This document shows positions 7,689-43,337 of a stretch of DNA of 64,000 nucleotides, one piece after another (the stretch's first letter is position 1; every line of letters begins with the position of its first letter). The stretch comes from Nitrosomonas sp. Nm84 (GTDB lineage: Bacteria > Pseudomonadota > Gammaproteobacteria > Burkholderiales > Nitrosomonadaceae). The stretch lies in assembly GCF_003201565.1 (NCBI RefSeq), contig NZ_QJJP01000004.1, forward strand, positions 1-64,000, written 5' to 3'. Under the pieces are notes generated by a model. That model saw nothing but the letters and a program-made list of their open reading frames with translations, did not search any database and had not been told where the DNA came from. A program made the translations under genes and the position numbers.

Positions 7689-7775
7689 ATTTGAAAAGGG
7701 CAAACCTCGTGAAAATGAGGGACGCAAAGTCTAGGTCTACAGGGTTTATACCTCAGGATAGCATGACTGCCAAAT
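7689..7775 (+). promoter_or_regulatory. Cyclic-di-GMP-I (GEMM-I) riboswitch
   Basis: The core matches the known class I c-di-GMP aptamer. AGGGCAAACC is followed by a helix capped with a GAAA-containing loop, then GGGACGCAAAG, a second hairpin (TAGGTC...) and the tetraloop-receptor side GGATAGC...ACTGCC. A closing P1 helix forms from ATTTG (7689-7693) and CAAAT (7771-7775). A possible expression platform follows: CGCTA (7780-7784) and TGCA (7791-7794) pair with TGCATAGCG (7813-7821), followed by TTTT (7822-7825), which is a weak terminator shape. The first downstream gene is the subtilisin-like protease at 7889, so c-di-GMP probably controls that gene. Whether binding turns it on or off cannot be read here. 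Confidence 0.88.
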
Positions 7776-7888
7776 ACATCGCTAATTTGCTGCATGAGAA
7801 AATATGCGCGAGTGCATAGCGTTTTAACGATGATTTGTTCAAGCAGTTTCTTTCCGAAGTTTTCCCTGATGTTGAGAGGAGTCAACTT

Positions 7889-9820
7889 ATGGAAAGCAAT
7901 AAACAATCGTTACTAGCATTCGCTTCACTAATTGCTTCGTATCATCAATCAAATGTCCCTGAATTAAGCAACACCCAAATAACGCAATCCAGTTCTACAA
8001 AAGCTTTTCAATTTGTATTGTCGTGCAGTATGGTTGTAATTGCGAGTGTTTGTAGCACGATATTACCTGTACATGCCAATCCGAGTTTTGTTGATCCTGC
8101 ATCACTTAAATTTACACCTGCAAAAAAGAATGGTGGCGCAGAAGATTGGGTAAAAGGGCGAATTTTGGTTATGCCACGTGCTGGTTTGCCAGAGAAAGTA
8201 CTGGATAAGATCTTGGAGGAGCACGACGGTAAAGCCAGGAAAATTGGTCAAAGCGATTTGTACATTGTCGATTTGCCGGAGTATTCGGAAGAGGGCGCCG
8301 TTACAAAACTGAAACACCATCCGCATCTTAAGTTTGCAGAGCTTGATCGCGTTGTTACTTCCGCATTGGTTCCTAATGATCCTTATTATAACTATCTGGG
8401 GGATGCATGGCATTTGCCCAAAATAGGTGCAACCGCTGCATGGGATATTGCTCAAGGCGCGGGCATTACCATTGCGATACTGGATTCAGGTGTTGATGGC
8501 ACACATCCTGATCTTTCAGCGAATATGGTGCCGGGTTGGAATTTTAACGACAATAGTGCTGATTCCTCGGATTTAGGTGGGCATGGCACATTAGTGGCCG
8601 GCGCGGCTGCTGCCATTACCAACAATAACTTAGGTGTAGCAGGTGTCGCGGGGCAATCAAAACTCATGCCAATTCGTGTTACTGATTCGGCTGGGTACGG
8701 TTCTGTAAGTGCGATCGCGCAAGGAATTACTTATGCTACTGATAATGGAGCACGAGTTGCCAATGCAAGCTTCCTAGGGCTTAGCAATTATCCGACAATA
8801 CAAAGTGCTGCACAATACATGAAAAACAAAGGCGGTTTAGTAACAGTTTCTGCAGGAAATACGGCATCTTTGGAAAATTATCCGGTTATCACATCAATGA
8901 TTTCCGTATCGGCTACTGATGAGAATGATTTAAAATCTGGCTTTTCAAGTTATGGTGATTATGTAACAGTATCAGCACCCGGTTCTGGTATTTGGACCAC
9001 TCATAGCGGTGGTGATTACTGGGGAGTTTCCGGCACTTCGTTTTCCAGTCCAATAACCGCTGGTGTTATCGCTTCAATGATGTCGGCCAATCCGAGATTG
9101 AGCAGTGGTGAAATTGAGAATTTATTGTTTTCCACTGTGGTTGATTTAGGCGCAAGTGGGCGTGATCCTTATTTTGGCCATGGCCGGGTGGATGCTGCGC
9201 GAGCTGTACAAGCTGCAAAAATAGCCGTGCCAATCCAGGATACAGAAGCGCCCAATGTGTCGATTGTCGATCCGTTGGGGGGGGCTACTGTGCAAGATTT
9301 AGTACCCGTTGATATTCAAGCGATCGATAATGTTGGTGTAGCACGGGCTGAATTGTGGGTTAACAATACCAGTGTTGCTGTGGATAGTTCTGCACCGTTT
9401 GCGTTTACCTGGGATTCGAAGGGTGCTCAGAATGGTACGGCCAGTCTTACGGTTCGTGCATATGATGCGGCAAATAATATGGCTGCTTCGAGTATTGAAG
9501 TGAGCGTCAATAATCCAGTGCAGCCGCCGGTTGCGGATACGCAACCCCCTGTTGTACAGATCATTAATCCGGTAGCAGGCAATGTTTCCGGTAATGTCGC
9601 GATTAGTGTGAATGCATCCGATAATAGTAGCGCTTCGGGTATTTCGCTATGGATTTATATCGATGGATCGCTAAAGGCTTCCGGCACGGGCAGTACCATG
9701 AGTGCCAATTGGAATATTCGTAAAAATGTCAGAATCGGTACTCACACCATCCAAGCTGTGGCGAGAGACGCTGCCGGGAATACATCCAGTACTGCGGTAA
9801 ATGTCAACGTAGTCAAGTAA
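7889..9820 (+). CDS. Subtilisin-like (S8) serine protease, exported
   Basis: This 643-residue protein has a long N-terminal extension with a hydrophobic export segment ending near ILPVHA (about 39-62). An inhibitor-like propeptide follows (about 80-150), then the S8 domain with the full triad: D in IAILDSGVDGTHPD, H in GGHGTLVAG, S in GVSGTSFSSP. Two Ig-like/cadherin-like modules (DTEAPNVSIVDP... and DTQPPVVQIINP...) end the protein and may bind cell surface or substrate. The start at 7889 is set by GAGAGGAG (7874-7881); the in-frame TTG at 7835 has no SD. A c-di-GMP riboswitch precedes it and a terminator follows, so it is a single-gene unit. Surface-protein processing is a plausible role by inference. 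Confidence 0.92.
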   Translation: MESNKQSLLAFASLIASYHQSNVPELSNTQITQSSSTKAFQFVLSCSMVVIASVCSTILPVHANPSFVDPASLKFTPAKKNGGAEDWVKGRILVMPRAGLPEKVLDKILEEHDGKARKIGQSDLYIVDLPEYSEEGAVTKLKHHPHLKFAELDRVVTSALVPNDPYYNYLGDAWHLPKIGATAAWDIAQGAGITIAILDSGVDGTHPDLSANMVPGWNFNDNSADSSDLGGHGTLVAGAAAAITNNNLGVAGVAGQSKLMPIRVTDSAGYGSVSAIAQGITYATDNGARVANASFLGLSNYPTIQSAAQYMKNKGGLVTVSAGNTASLENYPVITSMISVSATDENDLKSGFSSYGDYVTVSAPGSGIWTTHSGGDYWGVSGTSFSSPITAGVIASMMSANPRLSSGEIENLLFSTVVDLGASGRDPYFGHGRVDAARAVQAAKIAVPIQDTEAPNVSIVDPLGGATVQDLVPVDIQAIDNVGVARAELWVNNTSVAVDSSAPFAFTWDSKGAQNGTASLTVRAYDAANNMAASSIEVSVNNPVQPPVADTQPPVVQIINPVAGNVSGNVAISVNASDNSSASGISLWIYIDGSLKASGTGSTMSANWNIRKNVRIGTHTIQAVARDAAGNTSSTAVNVNVVK

Positions 9821-35371: not shown

Positions 35372-37951
35372 ATGTTTAAGATTTTAGAACACTCCAAGCA
35401 ATCAAGAGATTCTCGGTATTTTATATCGTCATTTCTATTGTTATTGTTTTCCTTTACAGTAAATAATACATATGCAACAACGCATTCGAAGGAGCATTTA
35501 TTAGCCGTATATATTTTTAAACTAGCTGAACATATTCAATGGCCTAATTCCTCTCAAAAGGATTTTTATCACTTACACCTCATTGACAAAGATAGTCAGA
35601 CAGAAGATCAGCTCAGGATAATCTCACAAATTAGAAAATTACATGGAAAAGAACTCAGAATCACTCGCAGTACTGGCGACAATATACCGAATAGTGTCGA
35701 GCTGATTTTTGTCGCCAAGAATGCAATAGAGAAATACTCGCAAGTTTTTCCGGTAACGCAAAATACAAATACGCTGCTCATTTCCAATGATCTGAATAAT
35801 GATCGGATCGCACTGATAGATTTAAGGGAAGCTTCAGGTAACAAGATTTCATTCAAAATCAATAAGGCAAATATTTTAAACCGTAACTTAAGCCTTAACC
35901 CCGACATCATTCTGTTGGGAGGTACCGAAATTGACGTTGCCCAGTTGTATAAGGAAGGGCTACAAAACCTCCAGGCTCAGGATCAATTATTACAAGTCCT
36001 AAAACAAAACATTGCCTCTCAGCAAGCTAAAGACACGCAATTGAAAGCTGATCTTACAAGAACTAAGAACGAAGAATCACGGCTTTCGCGACAATTATCT
36101 GATGCAGAGGAAAAAATAAATCAACAAAATAGTGAAATCGCAAAGCTGCAGAAAAAAATTGAAAAGGAACAAGCAGAACTAGAAATACTGAGATTGAACA
36201 CGCAAAAAATACAGGCGATGCTTATTCAAAAGAATAAAGCGATTCATGATAGCGAAGTTAGATACGGTCAGCTCAAACTGGACATAGAAGAAAAAACAAG
36301 AATTCTAGATGAAAAAAAACAGAAGATCCTGTTAGCCACCAATCAGCTTGAAAAACAAGAAGCCATCATTCATTACCAGCAGAGATTTTTATTCCTTCTC
36401 ATGGTTATCGGATTACTGACCGTACTGCTGTTGATCATAACCTTTATTGGGTACAGAAATAAAAGGCTATCGAACCAATTGCTGGAAAAAAATGCAGTGG
36501 AATTGGCACAGGCAAAAAAAATTGCCGAACATCACGCATCAGTAAAAAGCGCGTTCTTATCGAATATGAGCCATGAGTTACGTAATCCTCTCACTGCCAT
36601 TATAGGTTTTTCACATTTAATCTACAAAAACCCGATAACACCGCAAAATATCAAAGAACACTCGAATATTATCACGCGCTCAGCTAATCATCTTCTGGGA
36701 CTCATCAATGATGTTCTGGAAATGTCTAAAATTGAATCTGGAAAAATTGAACTGTATGAAGAAGACATAGATTTTCGCGGCATGATTAATGATGTAGGAA
36801 ATATGTCGAAAATTCTAGCAGAAGAAAAAAATCTGAATTTAATCTTAGATCTTTCTCCTACTTGTCCACATTTTATACGCGTAGACGCAGGTAAATTGCG
36901 TAGAATTTTTATTAATTTGATCAATAACGCAATTAAATACACTAAGGAAGGTGAAATTTCGGTGTGTATTAAATGCGAGCCAAGCGAGAATCAAAAAATT
37001 AATTTACTTTGTGAGATAAAAGATTCTGGTATAGGAATTTCAGCTGAGAATTTTGAAAAAATATTTCGTCCTTTTGAGCAAATACCAAAAGATAATCAAA
37101 GAAAAAATTCAATGCCTGGTACAGGATTAGGCCTGAGCATCAGCAAAGAGCTCATTGAGTATATGCACGGATCAATCAGTGTAGAGAGTAAACAAGGCTT
37201 TGGTTCAACATTCAGATTTAATGTCATTGTATCCAGTTCTCCGCATGAAGCGACGTCATTACAGTGCAGAACTGAAAAAATATTTCTAGGAATAAAGCCT
37301 GACCAAAAAAGAGTAAAAGCATTGATTGTTGAAGACATTAGCGATAATAGAATTTATCTGGAAAATACGCTTAATAACTTACATTGCGAAGTTGTATCGA
37401 CTGGAAATGGCGAAGAAGCAATAGAAGCAATTAAAACCCATCAATTCGATATCATTTTTATGGACATAAGAATGCCTGTTATGGATGGCATTGAAGCAAC
37501 CGAACTAATTCGCCAATTGCCAATGGGAAAGAATATTAAAATCATAGCTATAACGGCTTCAGCTTTTAAAGAAGAGCAGGAAAAAATTATGCCGCACGGT
37601 TTTGATGATTTCATTAAAAAACCGTATTTACCAGAAGAGATTCGTGATTGCCTGGCAAAGCACTTGCAGCTAGAGTTTATATATCAAAGCGACTTTACAG
37701 ACCTAGAGTCATGGGAAGATAGCAACAAGAAAGTCAAAGTTGACATAAAAGTAGAACTCAAAAAACTTACGCTGAATGAGAGACTTGATTTAGAATCGGC
37801 GGTATTGACACTTGATGTCGAAAAAACGATGAGTCTTATTGATGCGATCAAGATACAGCACCCAGAATTGGCCGATAGTTTGCGAGTACTTGTCGAAAAT
37901 TACGATTTCACGCACTTACAGTCGATTATTAAAAATATAAAAACAATCTAA
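35372..37951 (+). CDS. Hybrid histidine kinase with periplasmic YfiR-like domain
   Basis: This 859-residue protein has, in order: a signal sequence (to about 36); a YfiR/HmsC-like DUF4154 domain (about 38-190: EHLLAVYIFKLAEHIQWPN...LLISNDLNNDRIALIDLREASGNKISFKINKANI); a long coiled coil (about 200-330); a membrane helix (338-361); HisKA with H401 (NMSHELRNPLTAI); ATPase (NLINNAIKYT, DSGIGIS, GTGLGLSISKE); a receiver with D698 (IIFMDIRMPVMDG); and a helical tail (about 790-859). The periplasmic YfiR part is the input. YfiR elsewhere inhibits a diguanylate cyclase; here it is wired to a kinase. The gene is followed 32 bp later by an HD-GYP regulator, the likely output. Confidence 0.88.
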   Translation: MFKILEHSKQSRDSRYFISSFLLLLFSFTVNNTYATTHSKEHLLAVYIFKLAEHIQWPNSSQKDFYHLHLIDKDSQTEDQLRIISQIRKLHGKELRITRSTGDNIPNSVELIFVAKNAIEKYSQVFPVTQNTNTLLISNDLNNDRIALIDLREASGNKISFKINKANILNRNLSLNPDIILLGGTEIDVAQLYKEGLQNLQAQDQLLQVLKQNIASQQAKDTQLKADLTRTKNEESRLSRQLSDAEEKINQQNSEIAKLQKKIEKEQAELEILRLNTQKIQAMLIQKNKAIHDSEVRYGQLKLDIEEKTRILDEKKQKILLATNQLEKQEAIIHYQQRFLFLLMVIGLLTVLLLIITFIGYRNKRLSNQLLEKNAVELAQAKKIAEHHASVKSAFLSNMSHELRNPLTAIIGFSHLIYKNPITPQNIKEHSNIITRSANHLLGLINDVLEMSKIESGKIELYEEDIDFRGMINDVGNMSKILAEEKNLNLILDLSPTCPHFIRVDAGKLRRIFINLINNAIKYTKEGEISVCIKCEPSENQKINLLCEIKDSGIGISAENFEKIFRPFEQIPKDNQRKNSMPGTGLGLSISKELIEYMHGSISVESKQGFGSTFRFNVIVSSSPHEATSLQCRTEKIFLGIKPDQKRVKALIVEDISDNRIYLENTLNNLHCEVVSTGNGEEAIEAIKTHQFDIIFMDIRMPVMDGIEATELIRQLPMGKNIKIIAITASAFKEEQEKIMPHGFDDFIKKPYLPEEIRDCLAKHLQLEFIYQSDFTDLESWEDSNKKVKVDIKVELKKLTLNERLDLESAVLTLDVEKTMSLIDAIKIQHPELADSLRVLVENYDFTHLQSIIKNIKTI

Positions 37952-37983
37952 TGGCGAACGAACAAAAATTAAGCTAGGAAATT

Positions 37984-39030
37984 ATGAAAAATCCACCAGA
38001 TGTATTAATTGTAGATGATACGCTAGCCAATTTAAAAACGCTGGCAACTATCCTTAAAGAAGAAAACTACAAAATACACCCCGCCACCAGCGGCAAGCTC
38101 GCACTGGATAGCATTAATCATTCCCTTCCGGATCTCATTCTTCTGGATATTCGGATGCCTGATATGGATGGCTACGAAGTCTGCAAAATAATTAGAAATA
38201 TGCCTTCTTGCAACTCCATTCCTATTATCTTTATTAGTGCTTTAGATGATGTATCCGATAAAGTCAAAGCTTTTTCAATGGGTGGAAATGACTATATTAT
38301 TAAACCGTTTCGCGAAGAAGAAGTTAAAGCCAGGGTTGCTACGCATCTCAAAATAAAGTGCTATCAAGACAAGATGGAAGATCTGGTTGCCGCAGCGCTT
38401 AACGAAATCAATGCTCTGAATCATGAAATTATCGAAACCCAAGGTGAATTGCTATTCAGGTTGAGCGAGGTTTGTGAATCTAGATCACGGGAAACAGGTT
38501 CGCATGTTAAGAGAGTCTCGGAATTTTCGTATTTATTCGCAAAACATTATGGTTGCAGCAATGAAGAAGCTGAATTGATTAAATACGCTTCACCCATGCA
38601 TGATATTGGAAAAATCGGAATACCTGATTCCATTTTACACAAGGCTGGCAAGCTGGATCCGGAGGAATGGAGAATCATGCAATCTCATCCAGTGTTAGGG
38701 TATGAGATACTGCATGGCTCACCTCGTCCTCTAATAGCCCTGGCAGCACAAATAGCCTATGAACATCATGAGAAATGGGATGGGGCAGGCTATCCCCGTC
38801 AAATTTCTGGCAATGAAATAAGTTTAGCGGGACGCATCGTCGCATGCGCCGATGTCTTGGATGCGTTGTCATGCGCACGCTGTTATAAACCTGCTTGGGA
38901 GATTGATATGGTCATGACTTATTTTCGTGAGGAATCAGGAAAGCATTTTGATCCTTCCCTCGTTGAAATATTGCTTTCACAGCAAAAAGAATTTTTGAAT
39001 ATAATAGATTTGTACCAAGACAAACTTTAA
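37984..39030 (+). CDS. Response regulator with HD-GYP phosphodiesterase (RpfG-type)
   Basis: This 348-residue protein has a receiver with D11/D12 pair (VDD), D55 (LILLDIRMPD) and K107 (IIKPFR), joined by a helix to an HD-GYP domain. Visible motifs are H206-D207 in MHDIGKIGIPD, HHEKWDGAGYP (261-271) and CADVLDAL. All metal and GYP residues are intact, so it should hydrolyse c-di-GMP. One variation is A268 in place of the more usual S in GSGYP. It is cotranscribed with the YfiR-type hybrid kinase, which is a probable phosphodonor. Confidence 0.93.
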   Translation: MKNPPDVLIVDDTLANLKTLATILKEENYKIHPATSGKLALDSINHSLPDLILLDIRMPDMDGYEVCKIIRNMPSCNSIPIIFISALDDVSDKVKAFSMGGNDYIIKPFREEEVKARVATHLKIKCYQDKMEDLVAAALNEINALNHEIIETQGELLFRLSEVCESRSRETGSHVKRVSEFSYLFAKHYGCSNEEAELIKYASPMHDIGKIGIPDSILHKAGKLDPEEWRIMQSHPVLGYEILHGSPRPLIALAAQIAYEHHEKWDGAGYPRQISGNEISLAGRIVACADVLDALSCARCYKPAWEIDMVMTYFREESGKHFDPSLVEILLSQQKEFLNIIDLYQDKL

Positions 39031-39136
39031 TCAAAAGCATTACAGGCAAGAATTTCATCTGGAGTTGGAACTATCCTCATTTCCCAGAACTTGGAATTTT
39101 CCAATTTCAGGCATTCTGATGGTTGAATCCACGAAA

Positions 39137-41254
39137 TCAATAGCCTTTTTGCAGTGTCAACATCATAGACGCTGGTTCTGTCCAGAACAGACCAGGTTGT
39201 AAAAAATTACGCCGACTCAGCTCATCATCTGCGAGTGCTAGAAGATTATGTCCATCAAGGCGTACATAAAGATCCCGACCGAGTTGTTTTGATAGGCCCA
39301 CATTCCATAATGCCGACGTATCGTATGCATCATCTGGGACTGTAATATTAAGTTTTGCTAATTCATGCTTAAGGCGATCAAAGCTCCAGTTTACAACCAG
39401 TGAACTGGAAGCTTGAAAACCGTTACCCCATTTTTTGTCTAAAATAAGCTTGGACTGATGATCTGGAAATCGATAGAAAACCCGAGCAGTGCTGGCAAAA
39501 TTACGGTCTGTCGTGCCATAACTGTGTAATAGTGTGACGTTGAAGCTATCTGATGTGTAGCGAAGCGTTGCGTCAATTCCTGCATTGCGATAACCATTAT
39601 TGTAATGATCACCCTCACTGTTAGCCCGCCAGTTTAGCCAAGGGGTAACAGTGGCATGAATTTTATCGGTTGGATGATGCTCGTAGGTCAACTCGAGGTT
39701 ATCGACCTTATCGGGTAAAGCCCCTACATGACCGTAAGCGATACGAAAATCGCGTATATCATCTTCGGTTAAGAATCGAACCGCTCTACTGTAAACAACC
39801 TGTAGGGAATTATTATGCTTCAGATCTTTAGTGATAGCGAAACGAGGAGATAGCGATGTGCTGGAATGTTCATGAAAGTCGACACGGCCTCCTGCAAAAA
39901 CGGCCCAATCTTCGCGTGGCTTCCAGTTGATTTCACTAAATATTCCATGATTCAGGATCGTCCAAGGTTCTACTTTACCCGATGTTAGCATAATGGCTTG
40001 ATGATCCCGATCACCTTTTTCAAGGCTGCGCATGCCTAGCCGATTATGCCGAAATTCATAACCCAAAGCAGCTTTAATATTGGAGTCCTGGGGTTCCCAA
40101 CGAATCAGATTACGTGAAACCAAATGATCTTCACGATCGGAACGGCTGGTAAAAACACTTACAGGTGCATTTTGAGCAGAATCCAGCATGTCATAAGAGG
40201 CATTGAGCTCCAGTCGAGTTGCCTCATTGAGTTTGATTTTTCTTGTCAACGAAGCCGTGGCTTGTTGATAAAAATATTGTATTCCATTCGGAAAATCAGC
40301 ACTGAGACCAGGAACCGGTGATGCACTGGCAAGCGGCAAGGCCGTATCGACGGGATTCTTGATACCACCGCGCACATATCGTATCCATGCACTCCACGAT
40401 TCGTCGTCATACTGCGCATGAAACTTATATTTGTTCTGATCTTCGTAGTTTTCCCGCAAATGTGGATTTTGATACGGCACAGGCGAACCGGCAAGAACCT
40501 CGCGTCCATCAAATGTCATACCGGATTGACCTGAAAACAAATGCGCCGAATCACGCGAAACGCCTGGTTGCCAGGCCACGCCCGCATAAATAAACAACCC
40601 CCTGTTATCACCTAACCGCCGCCCATGCCGAAATTCCAGTGTGCTTAAAAACTCATTAAACCCCTGACGTAAATTGATATCCGTACCTGAAAAGCTCAAG
40701 CCGGTATGCGTGGTCACATCGATCAGACCCGTGGTCGCACCATTTCCGCGAATCGATCCGCCAGGCCCGCTTAATACACCGATATGTTGAATATCGCCTA
40801 ATAATGGGATATCGCGCTCTGTATTCGTGCCGCGTTGTGCGACGTGACGCGATTCCAGGCCGTTGACAACATAGAGCAACCGAGAATTCCCCATTTCACC
40901 GCGCATACCAATATTTGGCACGCCAAAATTATCATGGACGACATAAGCGCCGGGCACCAAAGCTTCCAGTGCTTGATTAAGGTCTCTAAATCCATGGTTT
41001 TTTAGCTGATTGCCCTGAATTAATGTAACTGAGCCAGGGATTTCTTTTTGCGATGTTGGTGTTAAGGAAACAGACGGGAAAAACTTTACACTTGAAAGTT
41101 CAGTTAAGGGCAAAGCTAATAATTCCTGCAATACGCGGTTATTACCTGGTCTTTTCGTGGGATGAGACCGACTAGTGGCCCCAGTTGCTTGCAAATTGTA
41201 ACTGCAAAATAATAAAAAAATAGAAAGTTGCGCTAGTAAGATTTTCTTGCCCAT
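39137..41254 (-). CDS. TonB-dependent outer membrane receptor
   Basis: This 705-residue protein has a signal peptide (MGKKILLAQLSIFLLFCSYN...). A plug domain (about 60-190) has GSVTLIQGNQLKNHGFRDLNQALEALVPG, GMRGEMGNSRLLYVVNGLESRHV and IGVLSGPGGSIRGNGATTGLIDVTTH. A beta barrel follows, and the protein ends with an aromatic residue (LTLQKGY). The N-terminal LALPLTELSSVKFFPSVSLTPTSQKEIPGSVT reads like the TonB-box region. The ligand is not readable. It is convergent with the HD-GYP gene, 106 bp apart; receptors of this kind often accompany YfiR-type signalling genes, so it may be the outer-membrane partner. Confidence 0.88.
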   Translation of the reverse strand: MGKKILLAQLSIFLLFCSYNLQATGATSRSHPTKRPGNNRVLQELLALPLTELSSVKFFPSVSLTPTSQKEIPGSVTLIQGNQLKNHGFRDLNQALEALVPGAYVVHDNFGVPNIGMRGEMGNSRLLYVVNGLESRHVAQRGTNTERDIPLLGDIQHIGVLSGPGGSIRGNGATTGLIDVTTHTGLSFSGTDINLRQGFNEFLSTLEFRHGRRLGDNRGLFIYAGVAWQPGVSRDSAHLFSGQSGMTFDGREVLAGSPVPYQNPHLRENYEDQNKYKFHAQYDDESWSAWIRYVRGGIKNPVDTALPLASASPVPGLSADFPNGIQYFYQQATASLTRKIKLNEATRLELNASYDMLDSAQNAPVSVFTSRSDREDHLVSRNLIRWEPQDSNIKAALGYEFRHNRLGMRSLEKGDRDHQAIMLTSGKVEPWTILNHGIFSEINWKPREDWAVFAGGRVDFHEHSSTSLSPRFAITKDLKHNNSLQVVYSRAVRFLTEDDIRDFRIAYGHVGALPDKVDNLELTYEHHPTDKIHATVTPWLNWRANSEGDHYNNGYRNAGIDATLRYTSDSFNVTLLHSYGTTDRNFASTARVFYRFPDHQSKLILDKKWGNGFQASSSLVVNWSFDRLKHELAKLNITVPDDAYDTSALWNVGLSKQLGRDLYVRLDGHNLLALADDELSRRNFLQPGLFWTEPASMMLTLQKGY

Positions 41255-41829: not shown

Positions 41830-41922
41830 TTATGGAGTCACGTCCATCTTCATTTCCGCTAATTCCTGCTTAACTCTGGATGGCTCTAATTCAAGCTCAG
41901 TCAGCGGTTTCTGATGCTTGCC
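41830..41922 (-). pseudogene. IS3-family OrfA remnant
   Basis: The minus strand gives GKHQKPLTELELEPSRVKQ then ELAEMKMDVTP and a stop. This matches the middle of IS3-type OrfA, whose conserved pattern is E-L-E-x-x-R-L-R/K-x-E-L-A-x-x-K. It is about 30 codons long, truncated at both ends. It begins exactly where the PEP-CTERM gene ends. Confidence 0.65.
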
Positions 41923-43337
41923 TACTGTAGCGGGTTCACTTCGTTTGTCGTGCAAGTTTCTTTTCTGCGACGCGCTACAAGACCCAACAGACCAAGTCCT
42001 GTCAACAGCATAATGTAGGCTTCTGGTTCTGGCACTGGCGTAATCGACAAGTGTGCACCTGAGTTGTCGAATGTGAAGTTCGTTCCCAGCCCTGCGTTTA
42101 AACCGTGGAAGCTGACCGTTAAGCTATCCCATCCAGTAATATTATCGGCGAGCAGAAAATTCCAATGATTACCCGCTGAAGCTTGAAAGCCATCGATAAA
42201 ACTGAACAGAACATTGCCTCCGGTAAAATCGACATTGCCGTTAATGGCCAACACGTCATAGAGTCCAGTTCCCGTTCCGGCAATTTCAAAATTAAGATTG
42301 CCGCTGCTGTGAAAATCGCCGTTGAACGTTAATGTACCTGGGGAATTGCCTGGATTGACACTGGCTCCGCTAGCGATGGTAACATCACCTGTGAATGAGC
42401 CGGCTCCGCTCACACTGCCGTTATTGATCTGCAAAGATGCCTGACTGAAGCTGCCGTTATTAATGGTTTCACCGGCATCTTGGGTGAATACGCCAGAACC
42501 GTTAATTGTTTTGGAATTCTCAAGCAGACCGGTATTGGTAAATTTGCCACCATTTTCCAGGGTACCCGTGTTAATTAGGGTACCACTGTTGTCAATTACA
42601 CTCTCTCGAAAATCAGACAAGTCGTTGACAGTATTGCTAAGGATACCCTCATTGTTTAGGATGCCTTCGTTGTTCAGATGGCCGCTGTTGATCAGCGTGT
42701 TATTATTGTTTAGGGTGCCTTGGTTACCGAATCCATCTTCCTCGCCATTGATCAAGGTGCCGTAGTTAGTCAGTTTGCCATCAGTGTTGTTGGCCAGAAA
42801 GCCTGGGTGGTCGAAAAACCCTGCGTTATTCAGGGTGCCGTAATTGTTTAGGATGCCGCTGTTGTGCAAGGTTTGGCCGTTTATCAGTCGACCGTCGATG
42901 TTGTTAGTCAGAATGCCGTAATTGGTCAATCTGACACCCTCAAAAATGAATAGTGAACCGCTATTGTTCAAAGTGCCATAATTATCCGATATGAGATTAT
43001 AGACCAGCTTGTTATTATTATTTAGAGTACCTGTAATGGTGTTGGTTAAGACACCACTCTCTATGAACCCGCTGTTATTTAAGATACCATCATTAATCAG
43101 CGTTCCGTCGCTCAGCCCGCCATTGTTGTTCAAAGTACCTTTATTGGTCAGTGTACCGTCTATGACTATGTCACCATCGGAATCAAAAATGGCGAGATTT
43201 TCTGCATCTGAATCAGAGATAACGATTGTGTTGCCAATGGGATTCGGATTCGGAGCAATCTGATAGGCTTGTATAAGAGTGGAGGTGCTTGTAAGCGCGA
43301 TACTTGCCAGTAGCATAGAAATCTTTGTCATGTTCAT
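41922..43337 (-). CDS. PEP-CTERM surface protein with Asn-rich repeats
   Basis: This 471-residue protein has a signal peptide (MNMTKISMLLASIALTSTST). About 20 tandem units of the type GxLxNxGTLNNNG follow (about 45-300), predicted to form a beta helix; then TGDVTIASGASVNPGNSPGTLTFNGDF, a pattern of autotransporter-like proteins. The end is a PEP-CTERM sorting signal: VPEPEAY, a hydrophobic helix and ARRRK. Exosortase would anchor or process it at the cell surface. The last residues (ETCTTNEVNPLQ) are beyond the usual end and may come from mobile-element DNA next door. SD AAGGAAA. Confidence 0.88.
   Translation of the reverse strand: MNMTKISMLLASIALTSTSTLIQAYQIAPNPNPIGNTIVISDSDAENLAIFDSDGDIVIDGTLTNKGTLNNNGGLSDGTLINDGILNNSGFIESGVLTNTITGTLNNNNKLVYNLISDNYGTLNNSGSLFIFEGVRLTNYGILTNNIDGRLINGQTLHNSGILNNYGTLNNAGFFDHPGFLANNTDGKLTNYGTLINGEEDGFGNQGTLNNNNTLINSGHLNNEGILNNEGILSNTVNDLSDFRESVIDNSGTLINTGTLENGGKFTNTGLLENSKTINGSGVFTQDAGETINNGSFSQASLQINNGSVSGAGSFTGDVTIASGASVNPGNSPGTLTFNGDFHSSGNLNFEIAGTGTGLYDVLAINGNVDFTGGNVLFSFIDGFQASAGNHWNFLLADNITGWDSLTVSFHGLNAGLGTNFTFDNSGAHLSITPVPEPEAYIMLLTGLGLLGLVARRRKETCTTNEVNPLQ

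Follow-up and report, generated by a model that had tools for sequence, protein, structure and literature searches.

A hybrid histidine kinase, an HD-GYP phosphodiesterase and a TonB-type outer-membrane protein encoded side by side in Nitrosomonas sp. Nm84 probably constitute a trans-envelope signalling unit, in which a receptor-coupled kinase would receive its signal through a periplasmic rod and control the HD-GYP enzyme. We hold this reading with moderate confidence, based on computed evidence from the domains of the proteins, the YfiR fold of the periplasmic part of the kinase, a predicted continuous helix, heptad-quantised spacing and genetic linkage. The window (i.e. the whole 64-kb stretch of DNA that was analysed) contains three open reading frames at this locus: a YfiR-coil-TM hybrid histidine kinase (859 aa; 35372..37951, + strand; ORF, Pfam and orthologues), a response regulator with an HD-GYP phosphodiesterase domain that begins 32 bp downstream of the kinase stop codon (348 aa; 37984..39030, + strand; PF00072 and PF13487), and a TonB-dependent-receptor-type outer-membrane protein (705 aa; 39137..41254, - strand; PF07715 plug, 4.9e-11). 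The ORFs, the Pfam matches and the YfiR fold match bear out the domains and gene order given in the original prediction, and the minus-strand ORF agrees with its placement of the receptor gene as convergent to the kinase/HD-GYP pair, outside the kinase operon. Pfam analysis of the genes around the kinase identified the HD-GYP regulator, the receptor, an FMN oxidoreductase and a PEP-CTERM protein, and no YfiB lipoprotein among the adjoining genes. The PEP-CTERM protein (41922-43337, - strand), which carries repeated N-rich sequence, adjoins the receptor gene.

The kinase begins with a signal peptide, followed by a YfiR-like periplasmic domain (residues 43-182; 35498..35917, + strand) that matched PF13689 (YfiR/HmsC-like) at 48.1 bits against a curated cut-off of 24.9 (1.6e-12). 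The domain ends in the family signature INKANILN..L..NPDIILLGGTEIDVA, which is conserved among fused relatives. A sequence search of the Nm84 domain against solved structures returned nothing useful, and the YfiR family profile produced weak YfiR matches only. The nearest solved structures to the model of the domain were all YfiR (Foldseek about 1e-7), with a Z score of 16.8 and an rmsd of 2.8 A over 143 residues. The HisKA and HATPase_c kinase core (36545..37222, + strand; Pfam) is followed by a receiver domain (37322..37648, + strand; PF00072, 1.2e-25), and Pfam together with a residue check identified the phospho-acceptor His (about residue 401, in a SHELRNP box), the ATPase domain and the receiver Asp. 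There was no Pfam match to PAS, HAMP or GGDEF anywhere in the protein, and a plasmid search with the kinase matched the kinase core as its sole part. The adjoining regulator was assigned a receiver and HD_5/HD by Pfam, its best solved relative being 4mcw (E 1e-57), which we take to be PmGH. The HD, HDIGK, HH-E and DG-GYP residues are all kept; the active site is therefore intact in its metal-binding and GYP residues, as originally claimed, and the enzyme is predicted to destroy c-di-GMP.

Between the YfiR domain and the kinase core lies a predicted periplasmic coiled coil (residues 189-340; 35936..36391, + strand), assigned from the AlphaFold2 model, the hydrophobic period and the absence of proline, which leads into a single transmembrane helix (residues 341-359; 36392..36448, + strand) with a mean hydropathy of 3.09 over 19 residues. 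AlphaFold2 placed the coil and membrane helix in one unbroken helix (189-384), with pLDDT of 91-94 over about residues 210-320; the model is a monomer prediction built from 20 relatives, and the YfiR domain was well predicted in it. Pfam and this model thus corroborate the earlier description of a YfiR-like domain covalently joined by a coil and one helix to a hybrid kinase. The hydrophobic period of the Nm84 coil is 3.50, with a periodicity score that is weak taken alone (z 0.4). At 0.1485 nm per residue, the coil of about 152 residues would measure about 22.6 nm, which is near the typical periplasm width, a general value rather than one for Nitrosomonas. A second model, that of a GGDEF fusion, contained a 145-residue rod helix, with a low-confidence break at 313-323, before the membrane helix.

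The original prediction contrasted the fusion of YfiR to a kinase with the usual separate YfiR; the fusion is real here, but fused relatives occur in other genomes. Searches yielded 88 fused YfiR proteins, 71 with distinct linkers, from five phyla (Proteobacteria, Campylobacterota, Bacteroidota, Ignavibacteriota and Lentisphaerota) and with a histidine kinase, hybrid histidine kinase or GGDEF as output. Most of the first 26 fused YfiR domains end in INKANILN...ILLGGTEIDVA. The linker to the membrane helix was 142-226 residues long in the 71 distinct fusions (median 165) and had a median of 163 residues in the 52 fusions with the signature; proline was absent from the linker in all 52, and the hydrophobic period was 3.46-3.56, the coiled-coil value, in 51. 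In a tree, the first 26 fused domains formed one clade, all on one side of a 100/100 branch, with long-branch warnings and with one ‘solo’ row on the fused side that was cut by a contig end. Repeated independent YfiR fusions were rejected on the basis of this grouping. The Campylobacterota (L101, L105, L108, L112 and L114) have a two-gene form, a TonB-type receptor followed by YfiR-coil-GGDEF, the latter a receptor-linked diguanylate cyclase as one protein. Divergent fused kinases from the family of G376 (L228-L236) are without the GGTEID signature, have prolines in some linkers and have no receptor nearby, possibly reflecting a different input.

The distance between YfiR and the phospho-accepting His was counted in residues from the second Gly of GGTEID. 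This distance is 217 residues in the Nm84 kinase. Of the 41 kinases in which it could be measured, 40 differed in steps of 7n or 7n+4: SHE-box kinases gave 217, 224, 231, 238, 280 and 294 (7n) and 235, 249 and 270 (7n+4), while AHE..NTP-box kinases gave 219, 226, 233, 240 and 254 (7n+2) and 230 (7n+6, again +4). The 4-residue step corresponds to a stutter, a type of discontinuity known from coiled coils (PMC6798134). The one exception, L181 (3024-4964; 253 residues), has about 40 extra residues between the membrane helix and the kinase and is left out of a 40/40 tally by a length filter that was chosen after it was seen; four fused kinases with a domain inserted ahead of the kinase were set aside. 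Tested on distinct lengths, which are not fully independent, the register rule had a P below 1e-5 (about 4e-6 with L181 counted). The first 26 proteins revealed the rule and a second batch then conformed to it, and control distances from the same proteins (inside YfiR, within the kinase core, and from the His to the receiver Asp) were spread with no such rule. The GGDEF fusions measured 256 and 270 residues, 14 apart.

A rod length that changes by whole helical repeats is expected if the rod carries a signal mechanically, and the rod length and register rule together support a mechanical transmitter that spans the periplasm and links the kinase to an outer-membrane receptor. The regular spacing could also reflect structural tolerance rather than signalling, with a stable coiled coil accepting whole-heptad insertions and deletions. 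Such changes are favoured in any long coiled coil, and the fused YfiR domains are one clade; however, the rule crosses the membrane helix to the His in two kinase classes, even though the position of the membrane helix shifts between kinases, and register through to the His goes beyond what tolerance confined to the periplasmic coil would demand. We consider tolerance an unlikely explanation.

Within the genus, the fused kinase was found in 4 of 37 Nitrosomonas genomes (G000, G030, G006 and G019), with orthologues in other genomes at 71% and 60% identity over the N-terminal part; the remaining YfiR matches in the 37 genomes were free-standing proteins of about 200 aa. Relatives of the receptor (E below 1e-20) occurred in exactly the same four genomes, with identities of 81% in G030, 67% in G006 and 30% in G019. 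The co-occurrence was significant (Fisher P = 1.5e-5), with fewer independent events than four genomes because some of these are closely related. A lack of co-occurrence between receptor and kinase, named in the original prediction as a refuting result, was looked for and not found. The kinase and HD-GYP genes are adjacent in three of the four genus genomes (Nm84, L024 and L025) and in a gammaproteobacterial MAG (L098), where receptor, kinase and HD-GYP follow in that order and are all codirectional. In G006, a 5.9-kb stretch with IS4/5, IS21, IS1595 and GGDEF genes separates the receptor gene and the HD-GYP gene, and these former neighbours have therefore apparently been pushed apart; the receptor of G019 is on a separate contig, and an HD-GYP gene is located three genes downstream. 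The co-occurrence of receptor and kinase, along with the adjacency of kinase and HD-GYP, supports the single functional unit originally proposed. An alternative is that the kinase signals to other regulators, the adjoining HD-GYP protein being no phosphotransfer partner and the grouping a product of local inheritance, as elsewhere most fused kinases precede other receivers or kinases and not HD-GYP. We find this doubtful given the adjacency of the two genes at the loci above and the presence of an HD-GYP receiver protein within three genes at 8 loci, some of them unrelated (L213, L215 and L239).

In its 3.47 Mb, the Nm84 genome encodes just some 10 plug proteins, and the chance of a receptor adjoining the kinase is therefore a few per cent; chance adjacency was rejected based on this scarcity, the co-occurrence in the genus and the free-standing YfiR loci. 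YfiR was present in 94 of 398 genomes in a phylum sample. Among 31 free-standing YfiR loci, a sample that leans toward high-scoring YfiR, a TonB-type receptor was located within three genes in 22, and the next-door gene encoded a kinase in 18 and a GGDEF protein in 6 (24 together). Signature fusions had a receptor within three genes in 32 of 52 cases. These counts indicate that receptor, YfiR and output are a widespread set, of which the Nm84 locus is the fused form. The Nm84 genome also has YfiR genes that are free-standing, two in number: the first adjoins an intact receptor, the second a fragmented one. At the latter (L027, 5834-8492 of contig C2), the second YfiR lies beside a receptor in several frames and adjoins the intact receptor-YfiR pair, an apparent case of one receptor copy decaying. 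The complete genome G006 holds seven YfiR genes (L025, L074-L078), with a TonB-type receptor next to all six free-standing ones, unlike most of the genus, which has few or no YfiR genes.

The sole Pfam match in the Nm84 receptor was the PF07715 plug (43.5 bits versus a cut-off of 23.9); neither an STN signalling domain nor a barrel profile was matched. Its matches to curated families were weak and mixed as to ligand class, with 47 bits against the TOL_0244 family (cut-off 645). An unusual LPLTELSSVKF element sits in the TonB-box region, and the N-terminal LLALPLTELSSVKF element before the plug (41078..41131, - strand) is a degenerate form of the LSLEELMNIEV motif found in YfiR-linked receptors, which mostly have an LSLEELMNIEVxSAS-like element just before the plug. 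Across five genomes, such an element was present in 11 of 13 linked versus 4 of 17 unlinked receptors (P 0.0025). It was found in none of the 7 unlinked receptors of the Nm84 genome, where ordinary TonB-box-like sequences mostly occurred. Because of its periplasm-facing position, we infer that the element is a candidate contact for YfiR.

The main weakness of the trans-envelope model is that a receptor within three genes is lacking for 20 of the 52 fusions with the signature, mainly members of the family of G376 and in some cases at contig ends; their input may come from unlinked receptors or from another source. These fusions favour a reading in which the tethered YfiR senses a periplasmic condition (a small ligand, peptidoglycan or another lipoprotein), with the receptor as an independent transporter that either is controlled by the same response or feeds into it, and the coil as a spacer that brings about no YfiR-receptor contact. 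The same reading draws on the substrate-binding proteins among the further structural neighbours of the YfiR domain and on the fact that what sequesters canonical YfiR is a lipoprotein, YfiB, rather than a TonB-type receptor (PMC3375315). It is harder to reconcile with the matching presence of receptor and kinase across the genus, the receptor-YfiR pairs across phyla and the enrichment of the N-terminal element in linked receptors. A disulphide redox switch was excluded, as the periplasmic part of the Nm84 kinase is without Cys. Overall, we regard sensing by YfiR independent of the receptor as rather improbable.

In the receptor-coupled model, we infer the receptor contact, the role of the ligand, the polarity or direction of the effect, the route of phosphotransfer and the c-di-GMP outcome. 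A parallel continuous coiled coil, of sufficient length to span the periplasm, would hold YfiR at its end, where it could reach the periplasmic face of the receptor, the probable site being either the plug or the N-terminal LxLxxL element. The receptor, through its ligand or its transport state, would alter the YfiR domain or the contact between the two, and a rotation or register shift would run along one helix, via the membrane, into the dimerisation helix of the kinase and set the kinase/phosphatase balance. Phosphate may then move via the kinase's own receiver, straight to the HD-GYP regulator, or both, and the phosphorylated regulator would show changed c-di-GMP breakdown. More tentatively, and with somewhat less than even confidence, we suggest a widespread and so far undescribed class in which TonB-type receptors with a dedicated N-terminal LSLEEL element dock on a rod-tip YfiR, and the receptor state is carried mechanically, with the register fixed, along >20 nm to kinases or diguanylate cyclases that are interchangeable.

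The original prediction also pointed to a c-di-GMP riboswitch alongside the unit. A c-di-GMP-I riboswitch (70 bits; 7689-7774, + strand) is present within the window, but a link to the signalling unit was rejected: it lies 27 kb from the kinase locus, directly upstream of an S8 subtilase gene with bacterial Ig domains (7835-9820, + strand). The subtilase, probably an exported protease, is likely controlled by c-di-GMP through this riboswitch.

To our knowledge, the route from an outer-membrane event to the cytoplasm has been settled in only a few systems. Should the rod model be true, the YfiR family would be added to these, the mechanism being a simple physical one. Many YfiR kinases and cyclases that lack annotation would gain an input and an outer-membrane partner, and receptor occupancy would be tied to c-di-GMP and, through it, to attachment and biofilm, in this case in an ammonia-oxidising Nitrosomonas. 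YfiR-kinase modules are already known: Malone et al. 2012 (PMC3375315) described divergent YfiR-YfiN modules, histidine-kinase outputs among them, mentioning neither TonB nor fusion. No paper on a YfiR-receptor set or a YfiR fusion was found in the literature searched, nor was the fused, register-locked, receptor-linked form found described there; new here are the rod lengths across 71 fusions and the heptad-quantised YfiR-to-His distances.

The YfiBNR system of Pseudomonas aeruginosa shares with the Nm84 locus a periplasmic regulator of YfiR fold and an inner-membrane transducer tied to c-di-GMP. However, its YfiR is separate and soluble rather than fused to a kinase, YfiN has a periplasmic PAS and HAMP-GGDEF in place of the long coil and HisKA/HATPase/REC, and the YfiB lipoprotein in its operon holds the outer-membrane place taken in Nm84 by a TonB-type receptor. 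The NCBIfam families TOL_0243 YfiR-like (NF053591) and TOL_0244 receptor (NF053590), judged to be neighbours by their consecutive locus numbers, represent a pair of the same kind as the Nm84 genome's own (L027 YfiR, 9.3e-36), curated as separate proteins without a fusion or rod described. FecA/FpvA-type receptors are TonB-type outer-membrane receptors that signal across the periplasm, as proposed for Nm84, yet they use an STN domain and an anti-sigma factor partner, whereas the Nm84 receptor has no STN and would partner a YfiR-tethered kinase. Response regulators of the RpfG/PmGH type combine a receiver with an intact HD-GYP, as in Nm84, where the difference lies in the YfiR-fused partner kinase. 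Finally, YF1 (PMC6798134) and BvgS (PMC5829827), like the Nm84 kinase, have a helical linker, and there its length modulo 7 sets kinase output; those tuned linkers are short and cytoplasmic, whereas the register of the Nm84 type spans a periplasm-length rod and continues through the membrane.
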